From Kribbella flavida DSM 17836 (GTDB taxonomy: Bacteria > Actinomycetota > Actinomycetes > Propionibacteriales > Kribbellaceae), in assembly GCF_000024345.1 (NCBI RefSeq), contig NC_013729.1:868001-932000 (forward strand): a stretch of DNA of 64,000 nt, in the 5' to 3' direction. Positions 5,065 through 34,297 of this stretch are shown here, one piece after another. A program made the translations under genes and the position numbers. Each line of letters begins with the position of its first letter. Position 1 is the first letter of the stretch. The notes under the pieces were generated by a model that was not told where the DNA came from, searched no databases, and saw nothing but the letters and a program-made list of their open reading frames with translations.

Positions 5065-5102
5065 TGGTAGGCCCCGTGGGACTCGAACCCAAAACCCGCG
5101 GA
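5065..5102. repeat. Left attachment repeat: 3' end remnant of tRNA-Lys
   Basis: 38 bp that match 51814-51851 at 37 of 38 positions; the only difference is at 5092 (a against c at 51841). The block covers the T arm, the 3' acceptor strand and the discriminator base of tRNA-Lys read on the minus strand, and stops at the anticodon stem. It is what an integrase targeting the tRNA 3' end leaves at the far end of an element. The minus-strand reading through it (VRVPRGLP) is a usual tRNA read-through artefact, not a gene. Confidence 0.9.
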
Positions 5103-9890: not shown

Positions 9891-9932
9891 TTCCCCGTGA
9901 GCGGGTTGGAGGGCGGGAGGAGATCGGTCCGC

Positions 9933-12900
9933 GTGCCGGTTGCGACAGGCAACTCTGTGACATTTCCGGCGTCGCCCGGAATTGGGCGAGTCGCCGCGAT
10001 CGACGGTGGGAGGGTTCGGGTCGACTTCTTCGAGTCCGCGGCGGAGCCCGTGATCGGGTCAGTGTGGGTGGCTGCTAACGACGTCAGGCGTGTTCCGCTG
10101 GGTGAGCAGACTCGGGTCTTCTTCCGTGATAGGCACGGCCGTTGGCGGGCTGGACGCATCGTCGGTGGCGGACCGGACACATACTTCGTCCGGGTGCCGA
10201 ACCTTCGCCTTGATGTTGAGATCCCCGAAGATCGCTTGCGCGTTCGTTGGGAAAGAGTCCCGCACGACCCGCTGCAGGTGTTGCTCTCCGGAGCCAACGA
10301 GACACCCCGCTTTCGCGACGCGCGTGAGCCAGTAAGGCGGCTTCTGCTGGCCGAGCGCGCTGCCACCGCATCGGCGACGGGGATCATGTCGGCCGGCGTC
10401 CGCATGCACGCTCACCAGATCAGCGCCGCGCTGCGGATCATCCGGGACCCGGTACAGCGTTACCTGCTCGCCGACGAGGTCGGGATGGGCAAGACGATTC
10501 AGGCGGGCATGGTGATGCGGCAGGTACTTATCGACGCTCCGGGTCGCCGCATCGGCATCATTGTGCCGGACGCGCTGGTGGCACAATGGCAAGCCGAACT
10601 GCGGGACAAGTTCTACCTCGACGATTTCCCGACCGTCGACGCTGAGTCGCCCGTCCAAGTGCTCGGCCACGGAGAGCCCGAGCGCTGGTCTGGCTTCGAC
10701 GGAGTCGATCTTCTAGTCGTCGACGAGGCACACCTCCTCGCCCGGACTCCCGGTCCGGACGCGTCGCCATACCGGGAACTCGCCGCGGTCGCACACGCGG
10801 CGCCGCGTGTTCTAATGCTCTCCGCGACCCCATTTTCGCGCGGCGCCGTCACACACCTGGCACTGCTCCACTTGCTCGACCCGCAGTTGTTCCGCTGGAA
10901 GGACCAAGAGTCGTTCGAGCGCCTCCTCGAGACCCGGCATGCCCTCGCGCTGGCCGTGTTCGGCCTGGATGAGGAACCGGACGTCGACAACCCCGACTTG
11001 TTACAACTCCAACTCGACGAGATCCGTGAGCAGTTGCCAGAGGACGAGACGCTCCGCAGCGCCATTCAGCGGGCGATGGATGTGTATGGTCCGCCGGGCA
11101 CCCCGCCGGACACAGTCGACGAGGAAGCGCTGCGCCTCGCGGTCGCCGCAGTTCGGACACACGTCTCCGAGACTTACCGCCTCCACCACCGGGTCATCCG
11201 GAACCGGCGGCACATGGTCGACATGCAGCGCCTTGACGACGAGGGCCTCCTTACCCCGTTCGAGTTCACCGGCCGTACCCGCCCGAAAGTCGTCCGCCTC
11301 GATACCGACGAGGTCCAGGTAGGCGCGAAGGCGATGGCCGATTGGGTTGCTGGCTGTGCGGCCGCGATTCTGGACGACGGCCTCGACGCCACCCTGTATG
11401 GCCCGGTGGCGGGGTTGCTCTTTTCGCGCCTGGGCGGGTCGGTGGACGACCTTTGCGCCGTCCTCGAACATCGCGTCTCAGGAACGACGACGCCGGGTTT
11501 GCTGTCGGCCGAGGAGGCCGTCCACGCGGCCGCCCCGACGCTGCAGATCGAAGCCGAGGTGCTCGCCGACCTGCGCGCGGTACGCGGCGCCGATGGGCTT
11601 GATGCGTTGGCAGCGGCTATCGCGAAGCGCTCCAAGGCGCCCGCCAAGGCGATCGTCTTCTGCGGCCGTGGTTCGCTTGCGGGAGACCTGGCCGATCGGA
11701 TTCCTGTGGGCGAAGGGATGGTCAAGCATGTTCACGCCCATCTCGGGAGCCAGGTAGAGGCCGAACGCGAACAGGCGACCGCCGCCTGGCTCGCTGACGG
11801 CGGCGTTCTTGTCGTCGACGAGACCGGCGACGTGGGCCGCAACTTCCAGGAGGCCGACCTTGCCTTCCACATCCGGATTCCAGGCAACCCCAACGCGCTT
11901 GAACAACGGATCGGGCGCCTGGATCGCTATGGCAACCAGCGCGCCGCGCAGCAGTTCGTGGTCGCCGACGACGACCGTGACGGGATCAGCACGGCCTGGC
12001 TTACCCTGCTCGTGAATGGCTTTGGGATCTTCGACGCCTCCACCTCGGCCTTCCAGGAGGTTGCCGACAAGCTCGCTGGCGACGTATGGACAGCGCTGCT
12101 GACAGATGGGGTCGAAGCGTTGCTCGAGCGTTCTGAGCCGATCAAGGCGGCGCTTCTCCGCGAGAAGCGCCGGATCAACGAACTGGATGCGCTCGAGGCC
12201 AGCTTCAACGGCCAGTCCGACGGAGAAGAGATGGCAAGGGCGATCGCGGCGTACGAAGAGGACAGCGCTGGAATCGAGAATGCATATCGCAAGCTCATCG
12301 AAGGAGATGAAGGGTACCGATTCGTCGGAAATCATAAGCGCGACGGGAGCATCTCCTTCGAGCGGGATTACCAGGACAAGCCGTTGCTCAGCGACCGTCT
12401 GCTCGCCCGGCTCATCAGCGTGGAGAACGCACGGACCGGATTCTTCGACCGTTGGAGCGTAACCCCAGCACGACGGCTGTTCCGCCGCGGTAACCCGTTC
12501 ATCGACGGTCTCGAACTCCTTCTCGACCTCGACGATCGTGGCCAGGCGGTCGCCATGTGGCGGCTCGATTCACGCTGGCCGGGCGACCCACTGGCATTCT
12601 TCGGGTTTGACTTTCTCATTGAGGCCGATCTGGAGCCGATCCTCACGATTCTTGACGGTCAGGCGCAGGTCGAGCCAATCGCGCGGCGTCGCGCCGATGC
12701 GGCGTTCCCGCCGCAGCACCAGCGGGTATGGGTACCGGTCTCCACCCGGGAGCCAGTCGCCGAGACCAGGCAGGTCGGCTACCTCAACCAGCCGTTCGTC
12801 AAAGGCCGAGATGTCAATCTGAACCTGGAGCGCATCCCCGCGCTGCACACCCTGGTTGGCGGTGAGCAGTACCTGGCCCCTATCGCCGAGGAGTGCTTCG

Positions 12901-13169
12901 CTGTGGCTCGCACGCACGTCGACCGAGTGGCCGACGTCGTGGCGACTTCCCGGCGGGCCGCCGCACGTGTTAGCCGGGAGACCGAGATGCTCCTCGCACA
13001 GAGCCGAGCGCGCGCCCGGGCTGCGGGCCTGGTCGCCGATCCGGCAGCACTGGAGGCCGAGGTCGCGATGAGCCGTGCCATACAGGCCGGGGTATCTGAC
13101 CCGCTGATCCGACTCAGCGGTGTCAGTTGTATGGTTGCGTCGGCGCAGTCCTGGGCTGACTATGTCTAG
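9933..13169 (+). CDS. dpdE: DpdE: SNF2-type helicase of the Dpd restriction system
   Basis: 1078 residues from the GTG at 9933, chosen over the upstream in-frame GTG at 9897 because GGGAGGAGA lies 9 bases before it. SNF2/superfamily 2 motifs are Walker A ADEVGMGKT near residue 180, VVDEAH near 260, LSATPF near 295, and the helicase C-terminal GRLDRYGNQRAAQQF near 660. The N-terminal 110 residues look like a small beta-barrel domain. In Dpd clusters the helicases belong to the part that restricts DNA lacking the 7-deazaguanine mark. First gene of an eight-gene operon; its stop overlaps the dpdF start by 8 bp. Assignment rests on motif content plus gene order. Confidence 0.88.
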   Translation: MPVATGNSVTFPASPGIGRVAAIDGGRVRVDFFESAAEPVIGSVWVAANDVRRVPLGEQTRVFFRDRHGRWRAGRIVGGGPDTYFVRVPNLRLDVEIPEDRLRVRWERVPHDPLQVLLSGANETPRFRDAREPVRRLLLAERAATASATGIMSAGVRMHAHQISAALRIIRDPVQRYLLADEVGMGKTIQAGMVMRQVLIDAPGRRIGIIVPDALVAQWQAELRDKFYLDDFPTVDAESPVQVLGHGEPERWSGFDGVDLLVVDEAHLLARTPGPDASPYRELAAVAHAAPRVLMLSATPFSRGAVTHLALLHLLDPQLFRWKDQESFERLLETRHALALAVFGLDEEPDVDNPDLLQLQLDEIREQLPEDETLRSAIQRAMDVYGPPGTPPDTVDEEALRLAVAAVRTHVSETYRLHHRVIRNRRHMVDMQRLDDEGLLTPFEFTGRTRPKVVRLDTDEVQVGAKAMADWVAGCAAAILDDGLDATLYGPVAGLLFSRLGGSVDDLCAVLEHRVSGTTTPGLLSAEEAVHAAAPTLQIEAEVLADLRAVRGADGLDALAAAIAKRSKAPAKAIVFCGRGSLAGDLADRIPVGEGMVKHVHAHLGSQVEAEREQATAAWLADGGVLVVDETGDVGRNFQEADLAFHIRIPGNPNALEQRIGRLDRYGNQRAAQQFVVADDDRDGISTAWLTLLVNGFGIFDASTSAFQEVADKLAGDVWTALLTDGVEALLERSEPIKAALLREKRRINELDALEASFNGQSDGEEMARAIAAYEEDSAGIENAYRKLIEGDEGYRFVGNHKRDGSISFERDYQDKPLLSDRLLARLISVENARTGFFDRWSVTPARRLFRRGNPFIDGLELLLDLDDRGQAVAMWRLDSRWPGDPLAFFGFDFLIEADLEPILTILDGQAQVEPIARRRADAAFPPQHQRVWVPVSTREPVAETRQVGYLNQPFVKGRDVNLNLERIPALHTLVGGEQYLAPIAEECFAVARTHVDRVADVVATSRRAAARVSRETEMLLAQSRARARAAGLVADPAALEAEVAMSRAIQAGVSDPLIRLSGVSCMVASAQSWADYV

Positions 13170-15738
13170 GGACGACATCGCCACGCTGCAGGCCGCGTTG
13201 AACTCCTGGCCGGAGATGCCTGACCAGGCGATCGGGGCCGAACTCAGCGATGCCTGTCGGCGGACTCTGGACGCGCTGCGTGGCCTGGGGACTCCAGCCA
13301 CCGGTTGGCTGGACATCGCAGCCTTGGTGCGGCAGGTGCTGCTCACAACTCAGGTGACCTATGGAGGGGACCCGTTCCTGATCGTGCCCGAGATCGCCCC
13401 GTGGCCCGATCTCGACCAATGGAACCGGGTCCGCTGCTCAGCGATCGCGACTGTAGATGGACGGCGTCTGATCCAAGCGGAGGACTGGTCGCCGCCGGCC
13501 TCCTTGCTCGACGACGGAGTCGGGGACGACCTCGCGCGCTTGCAGGTACGCGCCGCCTACCGCGACGCCGATCCGAGTTATGACAACGCCGTGACGGCCG
13601 ACCCGTTTTGGAGAGCTGCGCATGGTTACGACGTCTACCGCGGCGAGCCCCAACGGCAGGCGGCGCGGGCGGCTGTCCTCAGCGATGGGGGGTCGGTGAT
13701 CGTCGCACTCCCGACCGGGCGAGGGAAGACGGCGGTGGCCTGGTCGAAGGCGCTGATGTCAAGCGTAGGCGTCACCATCGTCGTGGTGCCCACGGTCGTA
13801 CTGGCCCTCGACATGGAACGCAGAACCCAAGATGCCTCCCGTGAGCGGGAGCAGAAGGGGAAGCCTGCGCTGAGCCCTCTCCTCCGGTACGCGTACGTCG
13901 GCTCACTGGCACCCGACGTTAAGCGGCAGTTGCGCGAGGCGGTACGTGCCGGCACCCAACGCCTGCTCTACACCTCGCCCGAGGCACTCGTCTCCAGTCT
14001 GGCCGCGGCAGTTATGGAGTGCGCACGTAACGGCCTGCTGCAGCAGGTGGTGATCGATGAAGCGCACCTAGTTGACCAGTGGGGCGCCGACTTCCGGTCC
14101 GAGTTCCAAACGATGCCCGGTCTAATCCGGAACGCCTACGAAGCCGCGCCCAAGGCGGCGAAGCCGTCTGTACTGCTGCTCAGCGCGACGCTCGCCCAGC
14201 GACCGGTCGATGTGCTCGCCCGCCTATTCGCGCTAGGTGACCGCCCGGTCGACCTGGTCTGGGGATCCGAAACCCGGACAGAACCGGCGTTCTTCTTCCG
14301 TAATCACGACGACGAGAATGCGCGAACGACTTCAGTTCTCGAGGCTGTCGCTCGACTGCCGCGTCCACTGATCCTGTACACCTCCACCGTTTCTGATGCG
14401 GAGAGCTGGGCCGTCCGTCTGCGTGCCGCCGGCCTCGCCAGAGTCGGCAGCATCACTGGCAAGTCTGGTGAGACCGAGCGCCGATCGGTGATGGAAAGAT
14501 GGAGAGGCAGAACCGACCACAGAATCGCCGCGCAAACCTCCCTCGACGTGGTGGTTGGTACGTCGGCATTCGGACTCGGCCTCGACATGCCCAATGTGCG
14601 GACGGTCCTACACGCCTGCCTGCCGGAGACTATCGACCGCTATTACCAGGAGATCGGTCGAGCAGGGCGCGACGGGCGTCCATCGTTAGCGTTTCTCTGC
14701 CGTGGTCCAGGGGACCTGCGCATCGCGAAGTCCCTCAACGACGTCTCGATGATCGGGGATGACCTAGGCTGGCAACGATGGCGACGCCTGCTCATGTCCG
14801 CGACTCAGGCGCCGGACAGCCACCTCCGCTACCGAGTGCCGAAAAGCACTCTGCCCGTCTACCTCGAGACCGGCTACGGACGGTCGGCGCGGTGGAACGT
14901 GCGCACGTTGACCCTGATGGCACAGGCCGGCATCATTCGGCTACGGGTACCGGAATTCACGCCGGATCCAAACCAGTCTGCATCCGCCCAGCAGGAAGCT
15001 CGCGATGCGTTCTATCGCGAGGTTGAGGACCTGCTCGATTTCGAAATCCTCGACGGCAAATTGCAAGCGCAAGAGGCCTGGAAGGCGGCCTTGGGGTCGG
15101 TGCGCGGCGAAGTGCGGGCGGCTCAAGGGCATGCATTGCAGTCCCTGCTCACCCTCGCCACCGGCGAGGAGTGCGCCGGCCGGGTCATCGCCCGCCACTA
15201 TGCCGTACGCCACGGGGGCGGGAAGTTCCACACCAGCCCGGCCTGCCGGGGTTGCCCGGTCTGCCGACGCGAACCGAGACGTGCGCCCGGAATCCATCCG
15301 GCCGAACCGTGCCCGTCGCTGCCGGCTCCTCACCGGATCTCCGATCCGCTGGCATCATCGCGCGGAGACGACCCGTTCCTCTTCATCCGGATCGACTACG
15401 GCGACGACGTCGGCCCCCTGCTCGCCCGGTTCGCACAGCGCGGCGCCCAGGCGTTCAGTATCAGCACCAACTTGGCCGCACGTCTGCAGCGTGACGTACG
15501 CACGCCGATTATCCGCGACGACCCGGCATCCGTCGCGACCCTAATTGAGAACTACTCGGGACTCGTTGTCATTATGACGTCGTTACTGCTCGAGGAGTCG
15601 GTGCGGCAACGGATCGCCCGGGGGCAACTCACCTACGTGTTGGGGCCGCCAGATCTGCCCGACCCGGAGAAGCCGGGCAACCTGTTGCGAGACACTCGGA
15701 AGAGCATCACAGCAATGTCAGCGTTGGGGAGAATGTGA
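13162..15738 (+). CDS. dpdF: DpdF: RecQ-like DEAH helicase
   Basis: 858 residues from the ATG at 13162; the earlier ATG at 13120 would run deep into dpdE. Superfamily 2 motifs are PTGRGKT near residue 184, VIDEAHLVDQWG near 298, LLLSATLA near 335, GTSAFGLGLDM near 468 and EIGRAGRDG near 500. A cysteine cluster (CRGCPVC, with a further Cys about 20 residues on) near residue 695 looks like a zinc site. It resembles RecQ in its helicase core. Named by its place between dpdE and dpdG in the conserved gene set. Acts with the restriction arm of the Dpd system. Confidence 0.88.
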   Translation: MSRDDIATLQAALNSWPEMPDQAIGAELSDACRRTLDALRGLGTPATGWLDIAALVRQVLLTTQVTYGGDPFLIVPEIAPWPDLDQWNRVRCSAIATVDGRRLIQAEDWSPPASLLDDGVGDDLARLQVRAAYRDADPSYDNAVTADPFWRAAHGYDVYRGEPQRQAARAAVLSDGGSVIVALPTGRGKTAVAWSKALMSSVGVTIVVVPTVVLALDMERRTQDASREREQKGKPALSPLLRYAYVGSLAPDVKRQLREAVRAGTQRLLYTSPEALVSSLAAAVMECARNGLLQQVVIDEAHLVDQWGADFRSEFQTMPGLIRNAYEAAPKAAKPSVLLLSATLAQRPVDVLARLFALGDRPVDLVWGSETRTEPAFFFRNHDDENARTTSVLEAVARLPRPLILYTSTVSDAESWAVRLRAAGLARVGSITGKSGETERRSVMERWRGRTDHRIAAQTSLDVVVGTSAFGLGLDMPNVRTVLHACLPETIDRYYQEIGRAGRDGRPSLAFLCRGPGDLRIAKSLNDVSMIGDDLGWQRWRRLLMSATQAPDSHLRYRVPKSTLPVYLETGYGRSARWNVRTLTLMAQAGIIRLRVPEFTPDPNQSASAQQEARDAFYREVEDLLDFEILDGKLQAQEAWKAALGSVRGEVRAAQGHALQSLLTLATGEECAGRVIARHYAVRHGGGKFHTSPACRGCPVCRREPRRAPGIHPAEPCPSLPAPHRISDPLASSRGDDPFLFIRIDYGDDVGPLLARFAQRGAQAFSISTNLAARLQRDVRTPIIRDDPASVATLIENYSGLVVIMTSLLLEESVRQRIARGQLTYVLGPPDLPDPEKPGNLLRDTRKSITAMSALGRM

Positions 15739-15739
15739 C

Positions 15740-16603
15740 GTGGAGTACTTGAACCCGAGCCCGGCGTCCTTCCTGCCCCAAGTGATGTGGCTGACGTACC
15801 GGACCGTCATGGAGCGACCGGGCCTCGGGGCCGACGACATACTCGAACTCCTCGCGCCAGCAGCGATGCGACAGCGGACGCCGCGCGGGGATGGCGTGCA
15901 CGTCCAGCGTGCTCTCGATGCCCTGCGCCATCTCAGCCTCGTCCGAAGCGAGGACGGCAGATTCACCGCCGACCGGGTGACCAACGCGGCTGCGTTCCTG
16001 CGGGTGTTGCGACATCGGGTGGTGAGCCCGCCGGATACGTTCGGGCCAGAATTCGACGCGCCCGACGACCTCCGCCGTGGATTGATTTGGCTACTGAGGC
16101 AGTCGCCAACTAAGCCGCTCGACTTCGACCTCGACGTGCGCCCGGTAACCACGGCCTTCACCAATGACACCCGCTGGAACACCTTTCGGCCGTGGTGCGA
16201 GGTGCTCGGTTTCGGGCAAGTGGTACTCGGCGTGCTCGCCGGGCCTGGTCAGAAGCAGGGGGGCGGCAAGCTCATCCCCAACCCGACCGGTGCCGTAATC
16301 GACGCGATCCGTGAGCCATTCGGCGATCCCTTGCCGCGCGACGAGCAGATCCCGATCACTCAACTGGTCGCGTTCCTCCGTGCGGAGATCCCCGTTCTCC
16401 CCGGTCACCCGAGTGCCACTTATGACGGTCTCACCGGCGAAGCCGATGAGGCATTGCGTGCGCTTGGCTTGGCCCTCACTAGCGCAGAAGAGCGGCAGAT
16501 CCTGGACATGACCTATCAATCCGACCCCTCGAGCGTGATGGCGCTTCACGACGCCCATGACGGCCGCCCACGGTACGTCTCAACCGTCACGATTCGGATG
16601 TGA
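15740..16603 (+). CDS. dpdG: DpdG: conserved protein of the Dpd system
   Basis: 287 residues from a GTG at 15740, one base after the dpdF stop, starting MEYLNPSPASFLPQVMWLTY when GTG is read as Met. No catalytic motif is visible. The N-terminal third (AADDILELLAP; ALDALRHLSLV) has the helical pattern of a winged-helix-like domain, which is inference. Length and position between the RecQ-like helicase and the large ATPase match DpdG. Its biochemical role is not known to me. Confidence 0.8.
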   Translation: MEYLNPSPASFLPQVMWLTYRTVMERPGLGADDILELLAPAAMRQRTPRGDGVHVQRALDALRHLSLVRSEDGRFTADRVTNAAAFLRVLRHRVVSPPDTFGPEFDAPDDLRRGLIWLLRQSPTKPLDFDLDVRPVTTAFTNDTRWNTFRPWCEVLGFGQVVLGVLAGPGQKQGGGKLIPNPTGAVIDAIREPFGDPLPRDEQIPITQLVAFLRAEIPVLPGHPSATYDGLTGEADEALRALGLALTSAEERQILDMTYQSDPSSVMALHDAHDGRPRYVSTVTIRM

Positions 16604-16608
16604 GGGCG

Positions 16609-19600
16609 ATGAGTACACAGGTCAACTTCGTCTGCTGGTCCGCCGACACCGTCACCGCAACCATCCCAACCGAGGCAGCGACGCCGTCGGACGCGGTGCT
16701 TCTCGGAACCCACTCACCGCTACGGATCACGCGCCGGGGAGGCAAGGGCGGCCATGCCGCCGAGGAGCTCATCACCGAGCACGAAGTGCTCGAGGAGTTC
16801 CTCGCCGCCGAGCCCAACAATGGTGTCCTCGTCGCCACCGTCATCGGCAAGTCTGGCGCCGGCAAGTCGCACCTCGTCCGGTGGGCCAAGGCGAACATGC
16901 CCGAAGCAACCGGACGGCGCCTGATCTACTTGCAGAAGACCGAAACCAGCCTTAAAGATGTGGTCGAGGCCCTCCTCGTCGACCAGCATGACCCGGCCTT
17001 CGACGAAATCCGACGCCGGGTCTCAACCCTCGGCAGTGGCATGACCGTCGACGAGATGGAGCAGCGGATCCTCAATGAGATAGCCGAGGCTCTCCGCGTC
17101 CACGAGGCACCGACGCCCCTGGGCAAAGCCCTGGTCGGTGACAACGGCCTAGCGCTCTTCTTCTTGGACCCACTCTTCCGGCAGCATCTGCTGCGCGAGG
17201 ACTCGTTTGTGAAGCGCCGGGCCAAGCACGCTCTGCGCGGGCGTGACGCCGACGAACCGGATGTCCCTCTGGAGTTCACCGTTGACGAACTCCCACTCGA
17301 CATCGGCGAGTTCGCGAACATCCGTGAGGCCGCCGCCACGACCCAGAAGATCTTCCGAAGGCTGTCGAGCAGCGCACAACTCCAGGTCGAGGCAGTCGCC
17401 CTGCTCAACGAGTTGTTCGATGTCGCGGTCACGAAGGCCGCTAGCCTGGGCGTGGGCGACGTAAGTCAGGCCTTCAAGAAGATCCGCGAGAATCTCGTCG
17501 GCCAGGAGATCGTCCTGCTCATCGAGGACGTGGCGCTGATCCAGGGCGTGCGTCGCGACCTACTCGACGCTGTCGTCGAGGTTGGGGTGGTGCAAGGTGA
17601 GCAGAGATACGCGACCGTACGCACAATGATGGCGGTCACCGATGGTTACTACACCGATTCGCTCCCGGAGACCTTCAAGCGGCGGGCAGAGGCTTCGTCG
17701 CCGCTCTATGAGGTCGATGTCGACCTCGACAGCAGTGCTGCGGACGAGCAGGACCTGATCGACTTCGTCGGCCGCTACCTCAATGCCGCACGGGTCGGCA
17801 AGGACGATCTTGAGGCGGCGACCCCTCAGGTACCGAATCACTGCGCGAGTTGCCGGTTCCAGGCTCCGTGCCACGACAACTTCGGGGCTTCCTCCGACGG
17901 CTACGGGCTCTACCCGTACAACAGGCCGGCGATCGTTCAGGCCGTCCGCGCGTGCGCCGAGCGAGATCAGGCGCGGCTCAACTTCAATCCGCGCAAGGTA
18001 CTCTCGCGCGCTGTCCGCGACGTGCTCAACGACAACGTCGACGTCATTCGCGAAGGACTCTTCCCCCTGGCGACCTTCCTCGCCGCGGAGGTTGAAAACG
18101 TCGGAGTGCAGCACCTGCCGCTGAGTGTCCGGGAACGGATCGAGGAGCAGTACCCAAACGACGAGGCGGAGCGTCTGACGACTCTTCTAAATTTTTGGGG
18201 CGACGGCGGTCGCAAGGTGATCCCGGCAGGCATCCTTACGGCGTTCTCGCACGAGCCGATCCCAGCGGATCTCTTCGACGAGCGGCAGACTGACGAACCT
18301 GGCGCGGACGGCGCAGGGGTCACCAGGGACGACGGGCCCATCCCTCCCTCGGTCCTCAAGCAACTCGAGGCAATCGACAACTGGTCGACTGGCCAGACAT
18401 TGCCCCAAGGTCTGGCCAACGAGATGCGGTCGGTGCTGCGGGAGGCCATCCTCGCCCGACTCACCTGGCTCGACCCGGTCATAAAGGAACCGGACAGCGC
18501 GTCACTGAAGAAGGCGATTCCGACGAACGCACGCGGAATCTCGATCGCAGGCGCGTCAGAGAACCTACAGAACTCGAACCCGGTCCTAGTAGTTCCGCGG
18601 ACGGCGCGGATGGCGCGCATGTTTCGCGGGCTGGTGATGCTCCGTGCAGGGTTCCCAGAGCGTGCTGGTGAGGCCTTGCCGCGGCTCGACGCCCTCGCTG
18701 AGTCGGCCGTCGTCGAGACGCGAAAGAGAGTGATCGCCGAACTAGCCGTAGACGACGCATCGCTGATCGACGCAGCGGCATCGCTGCTGCGCGGCGCAGC
18801 GGCCTCCGGTCGGCTGCCGGCGAAGGCCAAGGAGCTCGACCTGGTTAACGCCGTGCTCTGGTCCGAACCGGGACACCATCGTCCGGACGCCGGTGGTCGT
18901 GCCCCGCAGTGGACAGCCGCCTACGCGATCTACCTCGCCGCGCGCGCCACCGTCGTTGATCGATTCCTCGCCGGGGTCGGCGCCGCACAAGGCACTGGCG
19001 CGGTGCACGCGGTGGACATTCACCGCTTGTTGCCGATTGTCCGTCAAGCCATGGCTCGCGCCGAGGCGGGTGGCCAGGTCGTCCCCGAGTGGTGCGCGGA
19101 CGCAGACCGAAAGTTGAGGGCTCTTGAACGCTTGGCACCAGTTCAACTTGAGTATTGGCGAGGACTCACCTCTCGTATCCGGCGGCACATGCCCGCTGGC
19201 ACGAGCTACGGAGATACGGTCGGCGCAGTCATCGAAGCCGCCACAGTCGGTCATGCCCACGGGCTGGTCAAGGTCAACGACCTAGCGGCGCTAAACGCGC
19301 GTAACGAGACCGCGAAGTCCTGGGATTCAGGCAGCATCGGCGAGGTCGAGAAACTGCTCGCCGAAGCCGAGAGCGCGCCCGCGCTGACCCTGCTGGCACT
19401 GGCCGGCACCGAAGCGGGCGCCGAACTGCCAGCGATTGCTGATTTCCTTGATTCGACGGCCGCTTGGGTCGACGCAGGATTGCGGGAAGCTGAAGCCAAC
19501 GGAGGCGTAGCGACCGATCTAGATGCCCAGATCGATGCGACGATCGCGACCTGGTTTGGAATCCTCGGCGACCACGCGAAACGTGAGGCAGGCTCGGAAC

Positions 19601-19665
19601 TTCCAGGGACACCACAAACGTCGCCGGCGACTCAACTGGCGACCCAAGAAGGGAGCGCGCACTGA
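16609..19665 (+). CDS. dpdH: DpdH: large P-loop ATPase
   Basis: 1018 residues from the ATG at 16609; a GTG at 16600 overlapping the dpdG stop (GTGA) is an alternative start. A P-loop GKSGAGKSHLVRW lies near residue 79 and a Walker B-like LLIEDVALIQG near 305. A Cys/His cluster (CASCRFQAPCH) near 411-420 may bind zinc or a cluster. The second half is alpha-helical and unlike known enzymes. Position and size match DpdH. It probably uses ATP to control the nuclease/helicase partners, which is inference. Confidence 0.85.
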   Translation: MSTQVNFVCWSADTVTATIPTEAATPSDAVLLGTHSPLRITRRGGKGGHAAEELITEHEVLEEFLAAEPNNGVLVATVIGKSGAGKSHLVRWAKANMPEATGRRLIYLQKTETSLKDVVEALLVDQHDPAFDEIRRRVSTLGSGMTVDEMEQRILNEIAEALRVHEAPTPLGKALVGDNGLALFFLDPLFRQHLLREDSFVKRRAKHALRGRDADEPDVPLEFTVDELPLDIGEFANIREAAATTQKIFRRLSSSAQLQVEAVALLNELFDVAVTKAASLGVGDVSQAFKKIRENLVGQEIVLLIEDVALIQGVRRDLLDAVVEVGVVQGEQRYATVRTMMAVTDGYYTDSLPETFKRRAEASSPLYEVDVDLDSSAADEQDLIDFVGRYLNAARVGKDDLEAATPQVPNHCASCRFQAPCHDNFGASSDGYGLYPYNRPAIVQAVRACAERDQARLNFNPRKVLSRAVRDVLNDNVDVIREGLFPLATFLAAEVENVGVQHLPLSVRERIEEQYPNDEAERLTTLLNFWGDGGRKVIPAGILTAFSHEPIPADLFDERQTDEPGADGAGVTRDDGPIPPSVLKQLEAIDNWSTGQTLPQGLANEMRSVLREAILARLTWLDPVIKEPDSASLKKAIPTNARGISIAGASENLQNSNPVLVVPRTARMARMFRGLVMLRAGFPERAGEALPRLDALAESAVVETRKRVIAELAVDDASLIDAAASLLRGAAASGRLPAKAKELDLVNAVLWSEPGHHRPDAGGRAPQWTAAYAIYLAARATVVDRFLAGVGAAQGTGAVHAVDIHRLLPIVRQAMARAEAGGQVVPEWCADADRKLRALERLAPVQLEYWRGLTSRIRRHMPAGTSYGDTVGAVIEAATVGHAHGLVKVNDLAALNARNETAKSWDSGSIGEVEKLLAEAESAPALTLLALAGTEAGAELPAIADFLDSTAAWVDAGLREAEANGGVATDLDAQIDATIATWFGILGDHAKREAGSELPGTPQTSPATQLATQEGSAH

Positions 19666-24754: not shown

Positions 24755-25272
24755 GTAGGTCACGCACCGTGCGGACTCGGCCGCGCAACGGCCTGGCCAT
24801 CACCGACGTACTGACCGCGGCCCTGCTCTCAGAGTTTTGTGCTCCGAGTCCAGAACTGTGGCTCGTCACCGGTTGGGTCACGGACATGCCCGTGCTCGAC
24901 AATGCACACCGGCAATACGACGCGGTGCTTGGCGACGATGCCCGATCCAGCCTGACCCTTACAGAAGTCCTCGGCGCGCTCACCCGCAGGGGATCCCACG
25001 TTCATGTCGCTGTTCGCGAGGTTGACCACAACCGGCGTTTCGTGGAACGGCTCCGTGCCGCCGCCGAACCCACCGCGCTATCAGCCTACTCAAGTCCTGA
25101 CCTGCACGAGAAGATGCTGGTTGGCTGGACCTGGCTGATGAAAGGGTCGATGAACTTCACCTGGAGCGGGCTCCAGCGCAACGAGGAAAGCATCGACTTT
25201 GAACTCGATGTCACCGCGGCGGCGACCCAGCGCCTGGAGTTGCAAACCCGTTGGAGGGGTGACGCGCCATGA
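24751..25272 (+). CDS. dpdK: DpdK: phospholipase D-like nuclease
   Basis: 173 residues, ATG overlapping the dpdJ stop (ATGA). One PLD-type HxK motif (LHEKML near residue 118) is followed by GSMNFTWSG, the expected Ser/Asn continuation. With a single HxK motif it should work as a dimer, like Nuc-type endonucleases. It is the best candidate for the strand-cutting enzyme of the restriction arm. Coupled translation with the helicase before it and dpdD after it. Confidence 0.88.
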   Translation: MSRSRTVRTRPRNGLAITDVLTAALLSEFCAPSPELWLVTGWVTDMPVLDNAHRQYDAVLGDDARSSLTLTEVLGALTRRGSHVHVAVREVDHNRRFVERLRAAAEPTALSAYSSPDLHEKMLVGWTWLMKGSMNFTWSGLQRNEESIDFELDVTAAATQRLELQTRWRGDAP

Positions 25273-27272: not shown

Positions 27273-27362
27273 TGAGTGCAACGCCCACTAAGTACGCGTT
27301 AGCGGGTGCCCGCGATGAGCGCGCCGATACCGCCGGCGATTGGCTGACCAAGAAGTGGCGGC

Positions 27363-28133
27363 TTATCGACGATCGATCGATGCAACAGCGTCATGACTAT
27401 GGATGCTCTCGAGGTTGCGCACCTCAACGCGGTGCCTAACCTGGAGCAAATCGCATCTGACCGACAGGTCCCGTACCATGTCCTCCACAAACACTGGATG
27501 ATCAAAAGCCTGCATTGTGATATGCCGCTCATCGGGACGCTTGACAATTGGATAGACGGGAGCCGAACCGATCGATCGGATCATCGAAACCGCCTCGCTT
27601 GCCGAGATTGGGTACGGAGTGTCAGCACTACCCACTGTCGTCAGACGCACGTTGCTGCGCTGGTTGTGTGCTCCATAGTCTGAGATCGCCTTCGAGCATG
27701 GGCAGAGACTGGTGACTTCCGCCGTTACCGTTGACTGAATGTCTACCCCGGCTTGATCAAGACTCGCGTCGAGCCTCAAACCGTGCACCTGGTAAACGGA
27801 GCGACCTGTTACAGGTGCAGCCACTTCGGTCGCAAACTGAATCTCGGCGCCGATGCTGACCGTCCTTGCCTCAAACGCATCTGCTGCCACCTTTAACACG
27901 ATCGGCAGGCGGCGGGGATCCAATTCAGTCAGATGATCACGAATGAGTTCGACCATTCGACTCATGTGAGTTCCTCGCTTGTCCGCCGATAGCGCCACCG
28001 TGATATCGAAATCAGCAACTCCACTCTGCGCCAACTGACCGTCCACCAGGGAAACTGGGTACTTCACACTTGCTACGCCGACCCGGTCAATCGGAACACC
28101 TCGTATATCGAGTTCGTTCTGAATGTCACGCAA
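27363..28133 (-). CDS. folE2: GTP cyclohydrolase FolE2
   Basis: 256 residues from a TTG at 28133, preferred over the GTG at 28175 because GAGGAG lies 7 bases upstream and the product then starts [13 protein letters not shown], like FolE2 proteins. The FolE2 signature [18 protein letters not shown] lies near residue 148. It converts GTP to dihydroneopterin triphosphate, the first step to preQ0. Last gene of queC-queE-queD-folE2, its start overlapping the queD stop by 8 bp. A dedicated FolE2 frees the island from the host enzyme; the FolE2 class can work with metals other than zinc. Confidence 0.92.
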
Positions 28134-28494
28134 CGTCGACTCCTCGATAGCGACAGCCGGACGTACATGTCTCACGGACGACTACCTCAGTCAATCCGGC
28201 AAGTTCTGGTCGCAGCCGATCCCAGATCCAGCGGGCAAGGTTCTCGCTCGTGGGATTCTCCAACCCATTGACCTCATTCAGGTATCGATGATCGAGTTGG
28301 TCCTCAAGGGGAGTGAAGGCAGCCTTCACGTCCCCGAAATCCATCACCCAACCCAAATCCGGATCGACAGGGCCCGCTACCGATACCACCACCTTAAAGG
28401 AGTGCCCGTGCAGCCTCGAGCACTTGTGCCCCTCTGGAACGTTCGGCAGCCGATGCGCGGCCTCGAAGGTGAACTCTCGAAAGATCTCGGTCAC
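28126..28494 (-). CDS. queD: 6-carboxy-5,6,7,8-tetrahydropterin synthase QueD
   Basis: 122 residues from a GTG at 28494 overlapping the queE stop (GTGA), the usual QueD length. Zinc-binding histidines lie in FEAAHRL and in LHGHSF; the catalytic Cys is in HKCSRLHGH near residue 27; downstream are [16 protein letters not shown] and ENPTSENLA, all typical of the family. It makes 6-carboxytetrahydropterin from dihydroneopterin triphosphate, the substrate for QueE. Confidence 0.95.
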
Positions 28495-29126
28495 GGAATC
28501 CCCAGGTACTTGTGAGTCTGAAGGCTCAACTGCCAACGCGGATGCTTGAGGCAATACTCGACGGCCGCGGCCGTGTTCTGCTGCCGATCAGGACTGTCCA
28601 TCGGCTGCAATCGGAAGTGCTCGAACTCCAGGTGCTCGAATTGCGCCGGATCTCCGCCCGCCTGTGGATACACCAACTTGAGTTCATCACCCGACGTCAC
28701 AATCAGTTCAGCGCCGATCTTCGGGCTCACGCACAACCAGTCCAGGCCCTGCGGAGGGATCTGTGTGCCGTTGGTTTCGACGGCAACGTAGAAGCCCCGT
28801 TCATGGAGTGCGGATACCGCATCTGCGTCCAACTGGAGAAGGGGTTCGCCACCAGTGCACACCACCATTCGCTGATCGTGTCCGTCGTGCGGCCAGGCGT
28901 CCTCGACTGCGCGTGCTAAATCTTCAGCACTAGCGAACTTGCCACCGCCAGGTCCGTCGGTTCCAACGAAGTCGGTATCACAGAAACTGCAGATCGCTCG
29001 GGCCCGGTCCTTCTCGCGCCCGGTCCACAAGTTGCATGACGCGAAGCGGCAGAACACCGCCGGTCGACCGGCGTGTGAGCCCTCGCCCTGCAGCGTGTAG
29101 AAGATCTCCTTTACCTTGTAAGACAC
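28491..29126 (-). CDS. queE: 7-carboxy-7-deazaguanine synthase QueE
   Basis: 211 residues from a GTG at 29126, one base after the queC stop. Radical SAM enzyme: [14 protein letters not shown] near the N-terminus, then cysteines spaced C-x14-C-x2-C (from CNLWTGRE to CSFCDTDF), a spacing known in one QueE group. [10 protein letters not shown] and [15 protein letters not shown] follow. It contracts the ring of 6-carboxytetrahydropterin to carboxy-deazaguanine. Part of the island's own preQ0 pathway. Confidence 0.95.
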
Positions 29127-29127
29127 G

Positions 29128-29817
29128 TCAGCCCGCCTGGTACACCAGGGGGTCCTCGCTGCCGGCCTCGGCGAACCCCTTCCGCCGCAGGAGGCAGGAA
29201 TCGCAATGGCCACAGGGGCGGCCGTCGAGGTCAGGGTCATAGCAGGACGAGGTGAGCGCGTAGTCAACGCCCAACTTGAGTCCGAGCTCGACGGTCTGCC
29301 CCTTGGTCATCTCTATCAGCGGGGTGTGAATCTTGAGCCTGTGGCCGTCGACACCCGCGCGAGTCGCCAGGTTCGCCATCGCCTCGTAGGCTTCGATGTA
29401 TTCCGGCCGGCAATCCGGGTAGCCAGAGTAGTCGAGCGCGCTGACGCCGATGAACACATCAATGGCACCGACAGTCTCCGCGTATGCGAGCGCGAAAGAC
29501 AGGAAGATCGTGTTGCGTGCCGGCACGTAGGTAAGCGGGATGCTCTCATCAACGTCGCTCACGTCGTCATGCTTCGGCACGTCGATATCGGATGTGAGCG
29601 CCGATCCACCGAAAACCCTCAGATCGATGTCGGCGATGACGTGTCGAGCGACGCCTTGCGCCTCTGCGACGCGCGTGGCAGCGGCTAGTTCGACGACGTG
29701 CCGCTGGCCGTACCGAAAACTGAGCGCATACGGTGTGAATCCCTCCGAGCGTGCGATCGCGAGCACCGTCGTCGAGTCAAGGCCACCACTGAGCAACACT
29801 ACGGCCGGACGATCCAT
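29128..29817 (-). CDS. queC: 7-cyano-7-deazaguanine (preQ0) synthase QueC
   Basis: 229 residues from the ATG at 29817, with GGAGG-type sites upstream; an ATG five codons earlier is an alternative. PP-loop [10 protein letters not shown] near residue 10, [11 protein letters not shown] near 110 and a zinc site [17 protein letters not shown] near 190-206 are the QueC hallmarks. It converts carboxy-deazaguanine to preQ0 with ATP and ammonia. No queF follows, as expected if preQ0 itself is the base given to DpdA. First gene of its operon, divergent from dpdC. Confidence 0.95.
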
Positions 29818-29939
29818 CTTCTCCTCCACCTCCATAAGGGGTTGCACACACCCCGCGAGCCACGTCCAGGGTACGAGTAACTGCACGCTACAGTAGCTGC
29901 GACACCCTGACAGTTTCCGATCAGCGAGAGGCGGTGGAC
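29818..29939. promoter_or_regulatory. Divergent promoter region between queC and the dpdC-B-A-B operon
   Basis: Only 122 bp separate the two start codons, so preQ0 synthesis and DNA modification genes can be controlled together. It contains an 11-bp inverted repeat gctac-a-gtagc at 29887-29897. On the minus strand CTGTCA and TAGCGT 17 bp apart, overlapping the repeat, are a weak promoter candidate for queC. Confidence 0.4.
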
Positions 29940-30833
29940 ATGCGGAAACTGACGATCATCGTTACGTGCACTGACCGCAAGTCAGCGCGGCCAACCCGTG
30001 ACACTCTTGCGCGAAGCCTGCCGATCGGTAGCCTCTCAGATCGCTCCGACATCTGGCGAACTCGGCTGAAATCGGCCCCGAGTAGGCACCCCCTGAGCGC
30101 CCTATACCAGGGCGAGTCATGGTCACAGGTCACCAAACTCGGCACCACAGTTCGACGCGCGGGCTTCGAACCCCGGATACTTGTCGCCTCGGCCGGACTC
30201 GGCCTTCGTGACCTGACGTCCACAGCGCCCGCCTACGGAGCAACCTTTACGCGGTACCAACAAGACTCCGTCTGTCAGACAAGGGCAGACAGTCAAGATT
30301 GGTGGCATGACCGGATCCATGACCACTCTGCGCTCGATCCTGCCCGGGAGTTGCGCGGGCAGGTGCTCCTCGTGTTGTCAGCCAACTACGCGGTCGCGCT
30401 CGAGGCAGATCTGTTGGCCCTTGCTCAGCGGGGTAGCGACTGCCTACTCGTCGGAGGAGCCCGGGACATTGCGGGCCTACCGCGCCTTGCATCGGACAGA
30501 CGACTGCGCAGCCATCTCGGTGGCACAATCACAGGCCTGAACATGCGCACGGCGATCGCGTGGCTGGAACGATTGGACGGCTACAGTCTGCACTCCGACT
30601 CCCTGCAAGACGCCTGGAACACCTGGGCCTCCACCGTGTTGCGATCTGAGAACTACGAGAGAGCGACTGTAGGTGACGAGGAGGTTCTGACCTTTATTCG
30701 CGAGGCACGAGCAGCGAACCCAACGCTTCCACGGACGCGAGCACTACGATTGCTCCGCGACAACAACTTGGCATGCGAGCAACGACGCTTCGCGCAGCTC
30801 TTCGCGCAGGCGGTGAGCGCTCCATGCCAGTAG
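29940..30833 (+). CDS. dpdC: DUF6884/YaaA-like protein, probable DpdC
   Basis: 297 residues from the ATG at 29940, which has GAGAGG at a good distance; a GTG six bases earlier is possible. The N-terminal half has the pattern of the YaaA/DUF6884 superfamily: VTCTDRKSA, then [10 protein letters not shown], then [21 protein letters not shown] and QDWWHDRI. It opens the operon with dpdB and dpdA, and the dpdB1 start overlaps it by 10 bp. In Salmonella DpdC converts the preQ0 base in DNA to the amide form (dADG). The link of this gene to DpdC rests on position and on my memory that DpdC is YaaA-like, so the symbol is provisional. Confidence 0.6.
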
Positions 30834-31957
30834 AGAGACTGGAGCGCCGAGCGCTGCGCCTAGTACAAAGTGAGGCAGCCCCCCTTTACCTCTTCGCTCT
30901 CGCAGCCGATGAGGTTGACTTGGTCGCCGACGTCGCGCGCATCTCTCGAGACCAGGCCGGCAAGCTGATCGGATACCAACGTCCGGAGAAGAGAAGCCAC
31001 GTGCGACAGATCCTTGAGTACCTTGACTCCGGCGACGTCCTCTTCCCGAATGGCCTCATCCTCGCGCTGCCGGACACCGTCAGGTTCAAGTCCAGCCGGG
31101 GTCCAACAACCACAGACGGACTCGCTACCGCGGGGACGTTGACCATACCGTTGTCAGCCAGCTCCGATGGACCACGGCCCGCTTGGATCGTCGATGGCCA
31201 ACAACGAAGTCGGGCCTTAGCCCAGACGAAGAACACCCGGCTCCCGATACCCGTCGCCGGGTTCGTCGCCGATACCCTCGAACTGCAGCGCGACCAATTC
31301 CTTCGCGTGAACACGGTCTCCCCCTTGCCGGTGAATCTCGTTACTGAACTTCTACCGGAGATCGTTGCCGCACCGTCATCTCGGCTTTCAGCCCGAAGGC
31401 TCCCATCAGCGCTAGTCGACATGCTGAATCGGGATCCCGAATCGCCATTCCATAACCTCATCAAGCGAGCATCGGCAGATCCAGTCGAACGTAAGCACTT
31501 AGTCGTGACGGACAACAGTCTTGTCGAGGCGCTCAAGGAGTCAATCGAGTCGCCGTCGGGCGTGCTGTTCCCGTACCGCAACATCGCTGCCGGGACGACA
31601 GACACCGAGGGCATTCGTCGGGTCCTCTTGATCTACTGGACCGCGGTCCGCGAGACCTTCCCAGACGCATGGGGCTTACCCCCCGCTAAGTCGCGCCTCA
31701 TGGGAGGTGTGGGTATACGTGCGATGGGGCGCCTGATGGACCGCGTCATGGCTCACGTCGACCTTAGTAGTCAAGACGCGCTCGTCCAAGCCAAGAATGA
31801 ACTCTCCAGAATTGCCCCGCTTTGTCACTGGACCCAGGGCACCTGGCCCGAATTGCGCCTCTCCTGGAATGAACTACAGAACATGCCTCGCCACATCAGC
31901 GCCCTGTCGAACCTGCTGGTCCGGAGTTACCTCAGCGCCCGGACAGGTTCCCGATGA
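30824..31957 (+). CDS. dpdB: DpdB paralogue 1 (DGQHR/DndB-type protein)
   Basis: 377 residues from the ATG at 30824; the frame is open from 30773, but that part lies inside dpdC. Core motif WIVDGQQRSRAL near residue 123, the DGQHR signature shared with DndB and ParB-like proteins. FLRVNTVSPLPVNLV and GYQRPEKRSHVRQI are also typical. DpdB is needed with DpdA for inserting preQ0 into DNA. Its stop overlaps the dpdA start (ATGA). A second paralogue follows dpdA with the same layout but clearly different sequence, so this is not a recent duplication. Confidence 0.85.
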   Translation: MPVERLERRALRLVQSEAAPLYLFALAADEVDLVADVARISRDQAGKLIGYQRPEKRSHVRQILEYLDSGDVLFPNGLILALPDTVRFKSSRGPTTTDGLATAGTLTIPLSASSDGPRPAWIVDGQQRSRALAQTKNTRLPIPVAGFVADTLELQRDQFLRVNTVSPLPVNLVTELLPEIVAAPSSRLSARRLPSALVDMLNRDPESPFHNLIKRASADPVERKHLVVTDNSLVEALKESIESPSGVLFPYRNIAAGTTDTEGIRRVLLIYWTAVRETFPDAWGLPPAKSRLMGGVGIRAMGRLMDRVMAHVDLSSQDALVQAKNELSRIAPLCHWTQGTWPELRLSWNELQNMPRHISALSNLLVRSYLSARTGSR

Positions 31958-33192
31958 AGTTCTATTTCCCCGATAGCCAGGACCTGGTCAGTCCGACCTA
32001 CGACTTTCTCCATGACGAGTATTCCCCTTTGCGGGTGCGTCAACGCGACGACCTCTACGCTCACGAAGTGCTTAGCCGGCCTCCATATGATGGAATCCTC
32101 GTCAGCAAGGCCATCGTCGACGGGTCGGTCCGCGGAGCCGGAAAGTACACCGCACCGCAACGTGCCAGACTCCACCGCCTTGGGGTTCGTAAGTTCTTCA
32201 GACTCCCGCGCGGGGTCGAAACTCTGGGCGACAATGGGGCCTTTAATTATGTCGAAGAACGCATTCCGCCTGTAACCGTTCGAGAGACGCTCGACTTCTA
32301 TCAGGAATGCGGCTTCGATGCGGGTGTGAGCGTAGACCATGTAATCTTTGGCTATGACCCCGACGCAACTCCAGAGACCGTTGATACAGAGTGGGCTGAG
32401 CGCCGCCTACTCACACTTCGCCTGGCCGCCGAATTCATTGAGGCGGTAGACGCAGGCAACTCCACCATTCAGCCGGTTGGCGCCGCTCAAGGTTGGAGTC
32501 CAGATAGTTATGCGGACAGCGTGCGGCAGTTGCAATCGATGGGCTACCGCCGGATCGCCCTCGGCGGAATGGTTCCACTTAAGACGCCAGATATCATTCG
32601 ATGCCTCGAGAAAATCGCCGAGGTGCGCAGACCTGAGACTCAACTGCACCTACTCGGCATTACTCGCATCGAGTCGATGGAGGAATTTGCTCGGCTTGGG
32701 ATCGCGAGCTTCGACAGCACGTCCGCCTTCAGGCAGTCCTTTATGGATGACCGGAGAAATTACCATTCCCCAGAAACTGACTACGTCGCGGTGCGAGTTC
32801 CGCAGGTCGAGGGGAACAGCACTCTCAAGCGCAACATCCTTGGCGGCGTGGTGTCTCAGCGAGATGCAATCCGAACTGAAAGAGAGTGCCTCAGAAGGCT
32901 ACGCCGCTACGACTCCGGCGACTGCCCACTGGAATCGGTCCTAGACGCTCTTTCCCAGTACGAGGCAATCACCAAGAGCGAGAAGACATATCTCGACGCC
33001 TATCGGCGGACACTAGAGGCCACTCCGTGGAAGGCATGCTCTTGCGCTCTGTGCCGAGAGCACGGAATCGAGATTATCATCTTCCGCGGCACCGAACGGA
33101 ACAAGCGCCGGGGATTTCACAACCTCTCGGTTCTCTTCAAGAAGATGAAAAAGCTCACCCTCTGCAGCACGAACGGGAGCCGGCGTGGCTGA
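31954..33192 (+). CDS. dpdA: DpdA: DNA-guanine transglycosylase (TGT homologue)
   Basis: 412 residues, ATG overlapping the dpdB1 stop. TGT-fold features are an Asp in GVSVDHVIFGYD near residue 127, PVGAAQGWS near 172, RRIALGGMVPL near 200, a second Asp in IASFDSTSAF near 253 that matches the nucleophile position, and zinc ligands CSCALC near 361-366 with a His about 25 residues later. It exchanges guanine in DNA for preQ0. It is shorter than queuosine TGT at the N-terminus and differs throughout, as DpdA does. It sits between two dpdB genes and is coupled to both by short overlaps. Confidence 0.93.
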   Translation: MKFYFPDSQDLVSPTYDFLHDEYSPLRVRQRDDLYAHEVLSRPPYDGILVSKAIVDGSVRGAGKYTAPQRARLHRLGVRKFFRLPRGVETLGDNGAFNYVEERIPPVTVRETLDFYQECGFDAGVSVDHVIFGYDPDATPETVDTEWAERRLLTLRLAAEFIEAVDAGNSTIQPVGAAQGWSPDSYADSVRQLQSMGYRRIALGGMVPLKTPDIIRCLEKIAEVRRPETQLHLLGITRIESMEEFARLGIASFDSTSAFRQSFMDDRRNYHSPETDYVAVRVPQVEGNSTLKRNILGGVVSQRDAIRTERECLRRLRRYDSGDCPLESVLDALSQYEAITKSEKTYLDAYRRTLEATPWKACSCALCREHGIEIIIFRGTERNKRRGFHNLSVLFKKMKKLTLCSTNGSRRG

Positions 33193-34297
33193 TAAATACA
33201 CCCTTTGCCTACCCGCACTGCGGATACGGCAAGGAAAGCACTACATCTACTGCTTTGGAGTCGATGGAAAACGAATCCATGACTTCACCACTGTATCTCG
33301 AGTTCGACGAGAGGACGATCACCTACAGGGCTACCAACGTCCCGAGGTATTGAGCCATATCAACGCGATCCGGAGGTATCTCGAATCAGACGGCGCGATG
33401 CTGCCGAACGCCGTCGTCCTTGCCTTCGACGAAAGAGTCAAGTTCAAGGTATCCAAGACCGCCACGCTTGTGGACTACACCACAGTTGGCGAACTCATAA
33501 TTCCAATCGACGAGGCTTTACCAGAGAACGACAAACCTGCATGGCTTGTCGATGGACAGCAGCGTAGCGCGGCCATTCGCGATGCGGAACTCGCCGAGTT
33601 CCCGATCGCAGCCGTGGGGTTCATCGCGGACGGGCAGGATCACCAACGCTCACAGTTCATCCTGGTCAACAATACCAAACCTCTACCGAAAGGCTTGATC
33701 CACGAACTTCTTCCCGACACTGCAGGGCATCTACCCGCTCGCTACGCTCGTCGGCAACTTCCCACCCGGATCATGGCGCGGCTAAACAACGAAGTGACCA
33801 CCCAGTCGGACATCGACAGTCCGTTCCGCGGCCTGATCTCCACCCCAACGGTGCCCGACGGCTACATTAAAGACAACAGTGTACTAAAGATGATCGAGAA
33901 TAGCCTGTATGAAGGCGCTCTCTACCAATACCGCGATCCTCGCGACGGATCCGGCGACGAAGAGGCGATGCTTCTCCACTTGAAGATTTTCTGGGGCCTT
34001 GTTAAGGCTACGTTTCCAGAGGCTTGGTCACTGCCACCGCGCAAATCCCGTCTTAGCCATGGAGTGGGGATCCAAGCGCTTGGATACGTGATGGATCATC
34101 TGACGGACGGCATCCCAGCCAGGGAACTGCCGACACTTGACCTCGGCAAACCATTGGCGAGACTTAAGTCCGTCTGCGCGTGGACAAGCGGCGTTTGGGA
34201 ATTTGGAAATGGCGAGTCGCGCCGCTGGAATGGTCTGCAGAACACACCGTCGGACGTTCGCCTTCTTAGCAATCACTTACTGAGGTCAATCCGGTAA
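33185..34297 (+). CDS. dpdB: DpdB paralogue 2 (DGQHR/DndB-type protein)
   Basis: 370 residues from a GTG at 33185, overlapping the dpdA stop by 8 bp. The same architecture as dpdB1: GYQRPEVLSHINAIRRYL, then WLVDGQQRSAAIRDAEL near residue 122, then FILVNNTKPLPKGLIHELLP, and near the end KSRLSHGVGIQALGYVMD. The asparagine-rich FILVNNTKPLP box is closer to DndB than the dpdB1 version (FLRVNTVSPLP). Both copies look intact. They may form a heteromer with DpdA or serve different steps. Confidence 0.88.
   Translation: MADKYTLCLPALRIRQGKHYIYCFGVDGKRIHDFTTVSRVRREDDHLQGYQRPEVLSHINAIRRYLESDGAMLPNAVVLAFDERVKFKVSKTATLVDYTTVGELIIPIDEALPENDKPAWLVDGQQRSAAIRDAELAEFPIAAVGFIADGQDHQRSQFILVNNTKPLPKGLIHELLPDTAGHLPARYARRQLPTRIMARLNNEVTTQSDIDSPFRGLISTPTVPDGYIKDNSVLKMIENSLYEGALYQYRDPRDGSGDEEAMLLHLKIFWGLVKATFPEAWSLPPRKSRLSHGVGIQALGYVMDHLTDGIPARELPTLDLGKPLARLKSVCAWTSGVWEFGNGESRRWNGLQNTPSDVRLLSNHLLRSIR

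Follow-up and report, generated by a model that had tools for sequence, protein, structure and literature searches.

A Dpd 7-deazaguanine gene cluster on a tRNA-Lys island of Kribbella flavida and the DGQHR-HNH gene pair beside it

The actinobacterium Kribbella flavida DSM 17836 carries a long run of intact genes that resemble the Dpd system for 7-deazaguanine modification of DNA, set among mobility genes that are broken. This raises the question of whether the run is a complete restriction-modification system that selection has kept or the cargo of a decaying element. We analyzed a stretch of 64,000 nt (hereafter the window), comprising bases 868001-932000 of the single-contig, 7,579,488-bp genome. 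A first-pass annotation, made from the sequence alone, had proposed a complete Dpd system with its own preQ0 pathway. The best explanation of our results, to which we assign a probability of about 0.83, is a complete and selectively kept Dpd restriction-modification system on an integrative island that lies in a tRNA-Lys gene and is now immobile.

The Dpd chemistry and the restriction phenotype are known from published work on Salmonella Montevideo and its relatives. Applied to K. flavida, FolE2, QueD, QueE, and QueC would convert GTP to preQ0, and DpdA, aided by the DpdB ATPases, would replace guanine in DNA by preQ0. DpdC would turn part of this DNA-borne preQ0 into its amide (ADG). DpdD to DpdK, which include three helicases, an ATPase, a PLD nuclease, and accessory proteins, would then attack DNA that lacks the mark.

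Gene content, island borders, and selection

We found 16 uninterrupted open reading frames (ORFs) in three directons: dpdE-F-G-H-I-J-K-D (+, 9897-27272), queC-E-D-folE2 (-, 29886-27363), and dpdC-B1-A-B2 (+, 29934-34297) (Table 1). The three linked operons and open cargo genes of the first-pass annotation are therefore present where it had placed them, and profile models identify most of the genes as Dpd far above chance. Every gene that it listed was recovered, although the set counts 16 genes rather than 15, and DpdC and DpdI had to be named. It had also allowed that the helicases and ATPase might fall into another system. The helicases were instead identified as DpdE, DpdF, and DpdJ, the ATPase as DpdH, and the PLD protein as DpdK, each above its curated cut-off, while the DrmD and DrmA models, scored for an assignment of the helicases to DISARM, stayed far under theirs (130 vs 610 bits). 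No Dnd modification protein (dndC/D/E) was found among the scanned proteins, and the DndB-type matches are explained by DpdB. The set is a correctly identified system of a known kind, whose genes existing models already name; we found no paper describing it in K. flavida.

DpdA aligned over its full length with 7ui4, a DNA-guanine transglycosylase of solved structure, and both its C-terminal CxC..C..H metal-site cluster and its SVDH/SLDH region are conserved. The proposed preQ0 pathway was borne out, with queC, queE, queD, and folE2 all in the cluster. Because QueC was found nowhere else in the K. flavida genome, the pathway appears to be dedicated to the island.

The island spans 46.8 kb and is bounded by a duplicated 38-nt segment of the tRNA-Lys 3' end, at 5065-5102 and within the tRNA gene. 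Besides the Dpd genes it holds a DGQHR-HNH gene pair, a broken relaxase and helicase, fragments of IS110 and IS256 transposases, and a C-terminal integrase remnant. The mobility genes are thus as dead as the first-pass annotation had described them: the transposases are in pieces, the TrwC relaxase is split between frames, and only the remnant of the integrase is left. The attachment sites and the flanking DGQHR-HNH pair were absent from that account. Two other species of Kribbella, G011 and G012 (loci L055 and L059), have a 30-34-nt copy of the same tRNA-Lys end about 250 bp past dpdB2. The tRNA-Lys gene is thus a recurrent address of Dpd within Kribbella.

Table 1 Features of the K. flavida island. 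Positions are counted from the first base of the window.
Feature	Position	Strand	Evidence
dpdE, SNF2-type helicase	9897..13169 (start may be 9933)	+	NF041062 1038 bits, cut-off 500; PADLOC DpdE 1576 bits
dpdF, RecQ-like DEAD helicase	13120..15738	+	NF041063 738 bits, cut-off 550
dpdG (probable)	15740..16603	+	NF041064 55 bits, below cut-off 80; 49-56% identity to same-position Gordonia and K. catacumbae genes
dpdH, P-loop ATPase	16600..19665	+	NF041065 850 bits, cut-off 450
dpdI by position, fast-evolving	19665..20348	+	no model match; syntenic, 31-34% identity to same-position K. catacumbae and Gordonia genes
dpdJ, large DEAD helicase	20345..24754	+	NF041067 1519 bits, cut-off 800
dpdK, PLD-type nuclease, one HxK motif	24751..25272	+	NF041068 168 bits, cut-off 100
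dpdD	25269..27272	+	NF041061 485 bits, cut-off 300; PADLOC 898 bits
folE2, GTP cyclohydrolase	27363..28175	-	PF02649 (Pfam GCHY-1) 227 bits; NCBIfam 198 bits, under cut-off 215
queD	28126..28554	-	TIGR03367 112 bits, cut-off 89
queE, radical SAM 7-carboxy-7-deazaguanine synthase	28491..29267 (true start probably ~29120)	-	TIGR04508 348 bits, cut-off 240, match from residue 50
queC, preQ0 synthase, sole genome copy	29128..29886	-	TIGR00364 201 bits, cut-off 150
dpdC, expected dPreQ0 to dADG	29934..30833	+	PADLOC DpdC 427 bits over 297 residues
dpdB1, ParB-like ATPase, DGQQR motif	30773..31957	+	NF041060 396 bits, cut-off 300; own clade
dpdA, DNA-guanine transglycosylase	31954..33192	+	NF041059 608 bits, cut-off 200; 7ui4 E=2e-117
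dpdB2, second ParB-like ATPase, DGQQR motif	33185..34297	+	NF041060 510 bits, cut-off 300; clade separate from dpdB1
HNH nuclease, 291 aa, second gene of pair (putative Dpd association)	35591..36466	-	PF01844 37 bits, cut-off 21
third DGQHR protein, ParB/DndB-like ATPase, 460 aa, first gene of pair	36435..37817	-	TIGR03187 81 bits, cut-off 59; HNH-linked DGQHR clade, 94% support
TrwC-type relaxase/helicase, broken over three frames	44208..47362	+	PF08751 and AAA_30 matches in separate ORFs
attL-like copy of tRNA-Lys 3' end	5065..5102	+	97% over 38 nt; chance expectation 0
tRNA-Lys(TTT)	51814..51889	-	3' end (51814-51851) is the other att copy

To assess selection, we compared the genes with those of Kribbella catacumbae (contig record NZ_AQUZ01000019), whose DpdA is 81% identical. 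The ratio of nonsynonymous to synonymous divergence (dN/dS) was 0.04-0.07 for the que and folE2 genes and both dpdB genes and 0.15-0.21 for dpdC and those restriction genes that allowed an estimate, while dpdA and dpdK were saturated at synonymous sites. Ratios of 0.04-0.21 in nearly all genes, next to mobility genes that are broken, agree with the earlier suggestion that selection has kept the system. Counting K. flavida itself, DpdA was present in only 4 out of 38 Kribbella genomes and 3 out of 395 sampled Actinomycetes genomes.

dPreQ0/dADG has been reported in Kineococcus and S. Montevideo with such islands (PMC11888242). A GATOR-GC survey lists 2,335 unique dpd islands, including 333 from Actinomycetota, and dpdB was the gene most often present in an extra copy (PMC11888242). 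The K. flavida island shares with those of S. Montevideo, Kineococcus radiotolerans, and the 333 Actinomycetota the genes dpdA to dpdK (dpdG and dpdI as placed by synteny), clustered preQ0 genes, a mobile-island setting, and the extra dpdB copy (PMC11888242). It differs in having two dpdB genes around dpdA, where Enterobacter pPOL9A has one, in its tRNA-Lys rather than leuX site, and in the additional DGQHR-HNH pair.

Exchange of restriction modules, the two DpdB families, and the rival readings

We constructed trees for 15 actinobacterial clusters from a synthesis concatenate (A, B1, B2, QueC, and QueE) and a restriction concatenate (E, F, H, and J). The two trees strongly conflict (approximately unbiased test, p = 1.6e-55 and 9.1e-36). 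Gordonia grouped with K. flavida and K. catacumbae at 100% in 6 of the 6 restriction genes and in none of the 6 synthesis genes, and Cellulomonas grouped with the clade of Nocardioides-type clusters and Kribbella G011 and G012 at 100% in all 6 restriction genes and in no synthesis gene. DpdC tracked the synthesis genes in the gene-by-gene trees. These phylogenies indicate that actinobacterial clusters have exchanged their synthesis and restriction halves with one another. Restriction modules of at least three subtypes have thus been re-paired with related synthesis modules, which suggests that the restriction half may read the mark generically. As a separate observation, one metagenome-assembled genome (G655, loci L046-L048), possibly a mixed bin, contained two different Dpd clusters.

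DpdB1 and DpdB2 form separate clades (98% support for the split), each with actinobacterial, planctomycete, verrucomicrobial, and alphaproteobacterial members, and all members keep the DGQQR motif. The single DpdB of Enterobacter pPOL9A falls on the DpdB2 side. The gene order C-B1-A-B2 is conserved in the loci examined, including those of Planctomycetes, Verrucomicrobia, and alphaproteobacterial plasmids. The tree rules out a recent local duplication of dpdB; judging from this phylogeny, what the survey noted as an extra dpdB (PMC11888242) is, in this lineage, a second subunit of ancient origin. In all actinobacterial loci examined, dpdA lies between members of these two separate, ancient families; DpdB1 and DpdB2 therefore most likely act as different subunits alongside DpdA.

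Three other readings of the cluster were weighed. The modification might work while restriction is idle, with the synthesis half kept for some other reason and dpdD-K unused. Synthesis-only islands do exist (PMC11888242), the restriction half has been swapped between clusters, and its proteins change several times as fast as those of the synthesis half (dN 0.25-0.38 vs 0.05-0.20). We nevertheless regard idle restriction as unlikely, since all restriction ORFs are open, their dN/dS values point to constraint except in DpdI, and the swapped restriction blocks remain complete. It is less probable still that the Dpd genes belong to a decaying island and are intact only through recent insertion. 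The broken mobility genes around them would fit such an origin, as would the GC content at third codon positions (about 0.63-0.78 on the island vs >0.9 in core genes), but 16 genes over 24 kb have acquired no frameshift or stop while the integrase, relaxase, and transposases are all broken, and purifying selection is strong in comparison with a relative saturated at synonymous sites. The reading to which we give the least credence is that preQ0 from these genes goes into tRNA queuosine or a natural product and that dpdA lies beside them incidentally. The sole QueC of the genome would indeed be needed for any preQ0 product; against this, DpdA matches the NF041059 equivalog and falls under the general tRNA-guanine transglycosylase model (tgt_general, 26.8 vs 47.6 bits), and the que genes adjoin C-B1-A-B2 in many actinobacterial loci and share their phylogeny, unlike the restriction genes.

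Some points weigh against a complete and selectively kept Dpd system as well. Two restriction subunits rest on synteny, as DpdG is sub-threshold (55 vs 80 bits) and DpdI matches no model. dpdI evolves much faster than its neighbors (dN/dS 0.54), which may reflect an arms-race interface. The dN/dS values are approximate, with dS near saturation (proportion of synonymous differences 0.56-0.76). That the chemistry and the restriction operate in this strain is something we infer; on the preferred reading, K. flavida would carry 7-deazaguanine in its DNA and reject unmarked DNA.

The DGQHR-HNH pair and its relatives

The two genes of the pair are both intact and overlap by 32 bp. The first encodes a third DGQHR protein in addition to the two DpdBs, and the second an HNH nuclease. 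DndB and TIGR04172 (phosphorothioation-associated DGQHR protein 1) share its superfamily and the DGQHR motif; however, it scored 19 bits against TIGR04172 (cut-off 450), its Pfam DndB match was sub-threshold, and it groups with HNH-linked DGQHR proteins rather than with DndB. The HNH-linked proteins form a clade with 94% support, apart from DndB and DpdB, and the HNH core residues are conserved in all HNH partners. A profile search of the PDB with the DGQHR family gave no match, AlphaFold models from shallow alignments were too poor to use (DGQHR pLDDT 48, pTM 0.40; HNH pLDDT 40, pTM 0.26), no DGQHR homolog was found in the phage genomes searched, and the HNH search of 395 Actinomycetes returned short HNH-core matches only.

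Relatives of the pair were found beside both Dpd and Dnd genes. The closest DGQHR homolog in 72,556 plasmid records, on Bradyrhizobium pB41S5, is followed by an HNH gene of its own and lies 6 kb from dpdB-A-B-queEDC. In Agrobacterium vitis CP146243, an HNH gene and an IS5-interrupted DGQHR gene are located between the Dpd synthesis operon and dpdD-K-J. On the Dnd side, an HNH-DGQHR pair adjoins dndBCDE in Pseudomonas aeruginosa ppae01, and a DGQHR-HNH pair is near dndEDCB on the pTi of Agrobacterium larrymoorei. When 195 genomes from another phylum, selected without reference to Dnd or Dpd, were searched with a profile, one strong member was returned (G822), with dndB-C-D-E-HNH-DGQHR in a row. 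In a scan of 2.9 million viral contigs, a further pair was found downstream of dndD-dndE (L103) and another at the end of a contig (L104).

Dpd or Dnd genes were adjacent in 6 out of 6 independently found homologs with an HNH partner and readable context, compared with 1 out of 11 without HNH (Providencia, Leptospira, Acinetobacter, G163, G275, G689, G728, G756, G846, L105, and L106); this is a small sample, and the Fisher test (p = 5.7e-4) ignores shared ancestry. The window and Mycobacterium asiaticum, found through Dpd, were excluded from the count, and the context of L104 was unreadable. Within the HNH-linked clade, Dpd-linked members (the window, Bradyrhizobium, and A. vitis) and Dnd-linked members (A. 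larrymoorei, P. aeruginosa, and G822) interleave.

The pair resembles DndI and SspE, in which a ParB-like DGQQR NTPase domain (DUF262) is fused to an HNH domain (DUF1524) and the NTPase senses phosphorothioate, steering the DndI nuclease off self DNA and activating that of SspE (PMC11662687). Both arrangements bring together a ParB-like DGQ-R ATPase and an HNH nuclease in the neighborhood of a DNA-marking system. The pair differs in consisting of two ORFs, in combining a DndB/DGQHR-type ATPase with a PF01844 HNH rather than DUF262 with DUF1524, and in being linked to both Dpd and Dnd. Because its chains are separate and belong to different Pfam families, the pair may at most work like DndI and SspE and is not a member of that family.

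By this analogy, we tentatively read the pair, at a little under even odds, as a two-gene family of mark-sensing nucleases that is interchangeable between Dpd and Dnd and forms a split counterpart of DndI/SspE. The DGQHR ATPase would detect whether DNA bears the mark of the resident system, 7-deazaguanine for Dpd or sulfur for Dnd, and would gate the HNH nuclease; since Dpd-linked and Dnd-linked members are intermixed in the tree, the family would have changed its partner system more than once. That the pair is instead unrelated cargo, for example a homing-type HNH gene or the remains of a different element, is a serious contender, which we rate only slightly lower. The pair lies on the opposite strand from dpdB2 and is separated from it by 1.3 kb of non-coding or degraded sequence, its GC content is 57.5% compared with 63.6% for the Dpd genes, and it is absent from the Dpd islands of K. 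catacumbae, G011, and G012; the adjacency count given above argues the other way. HNH nucleases have been noted around Dnd modification genes (PMC10853773). We found no statement that such a pair is common to Dnd and Dpd in the literature searched, where many subscription papers and all supplements were beyond reach.

Several neighboring arrangements were also observed. On Bradyrhizobium pB41S5 (L033, 17795-21392), the Dpd synthesis genes are beside a UvrD-like helicase, a Cas4-like PD-(D/E)XK nuclease, and the DGQHR-HNH pair, and neither DpdH (searched to E = 1e-3) nor DpdJ (to E = 1e-20) was matched on the plasmid; the set is possibly an alternative restriction module. A constant unit of the pair with a helicase and a PD-(D/E)XK nuclease was rejected, as the A. 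larrymoorei helicase is SF2-type with a ParB-like partner. A helicase fragment like this Dnd-linked helicase is directly beside folE2 of another Dpd cluster (L067, 13569-14675). M. asiaticum has an overlapping HNH and DGQHR pair upstream of dpdE (L051, 4638-6474); its DGQHR protein is on a different branch outside the clade, and this pair was set aside as an analogue only. In the viral-collection contig L103 (2205-10631), dndD-dndE are followed by a GHKL-like ATPase ORF, two further ORFs, and then DGQHR-HNH. Elsewhere on the K. flavida island are genes for an Imm1 immunity protein, an APH-family phosphotransferase, and an HTH regulator (window 38541-41284) and for a MerB-type alkylmercury lyase with a MerR regulator (window 42369-43810).

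K. flavida offers a clean actinobacterial example of Dpd in a culturable type strain, with a full set of parts, its own preQ0 supply, and island borders that are known. The exchange of halves implies that the mark of related synthesis modules is usable by more than one restriction module, which bears on what DpdD-K recognize. If the DGQHR-HNH pair reads a base or backbone mark, it would connect two chemistries of defense and point to a shared principle, with ParB-like ATPases as the sensors of the mark.

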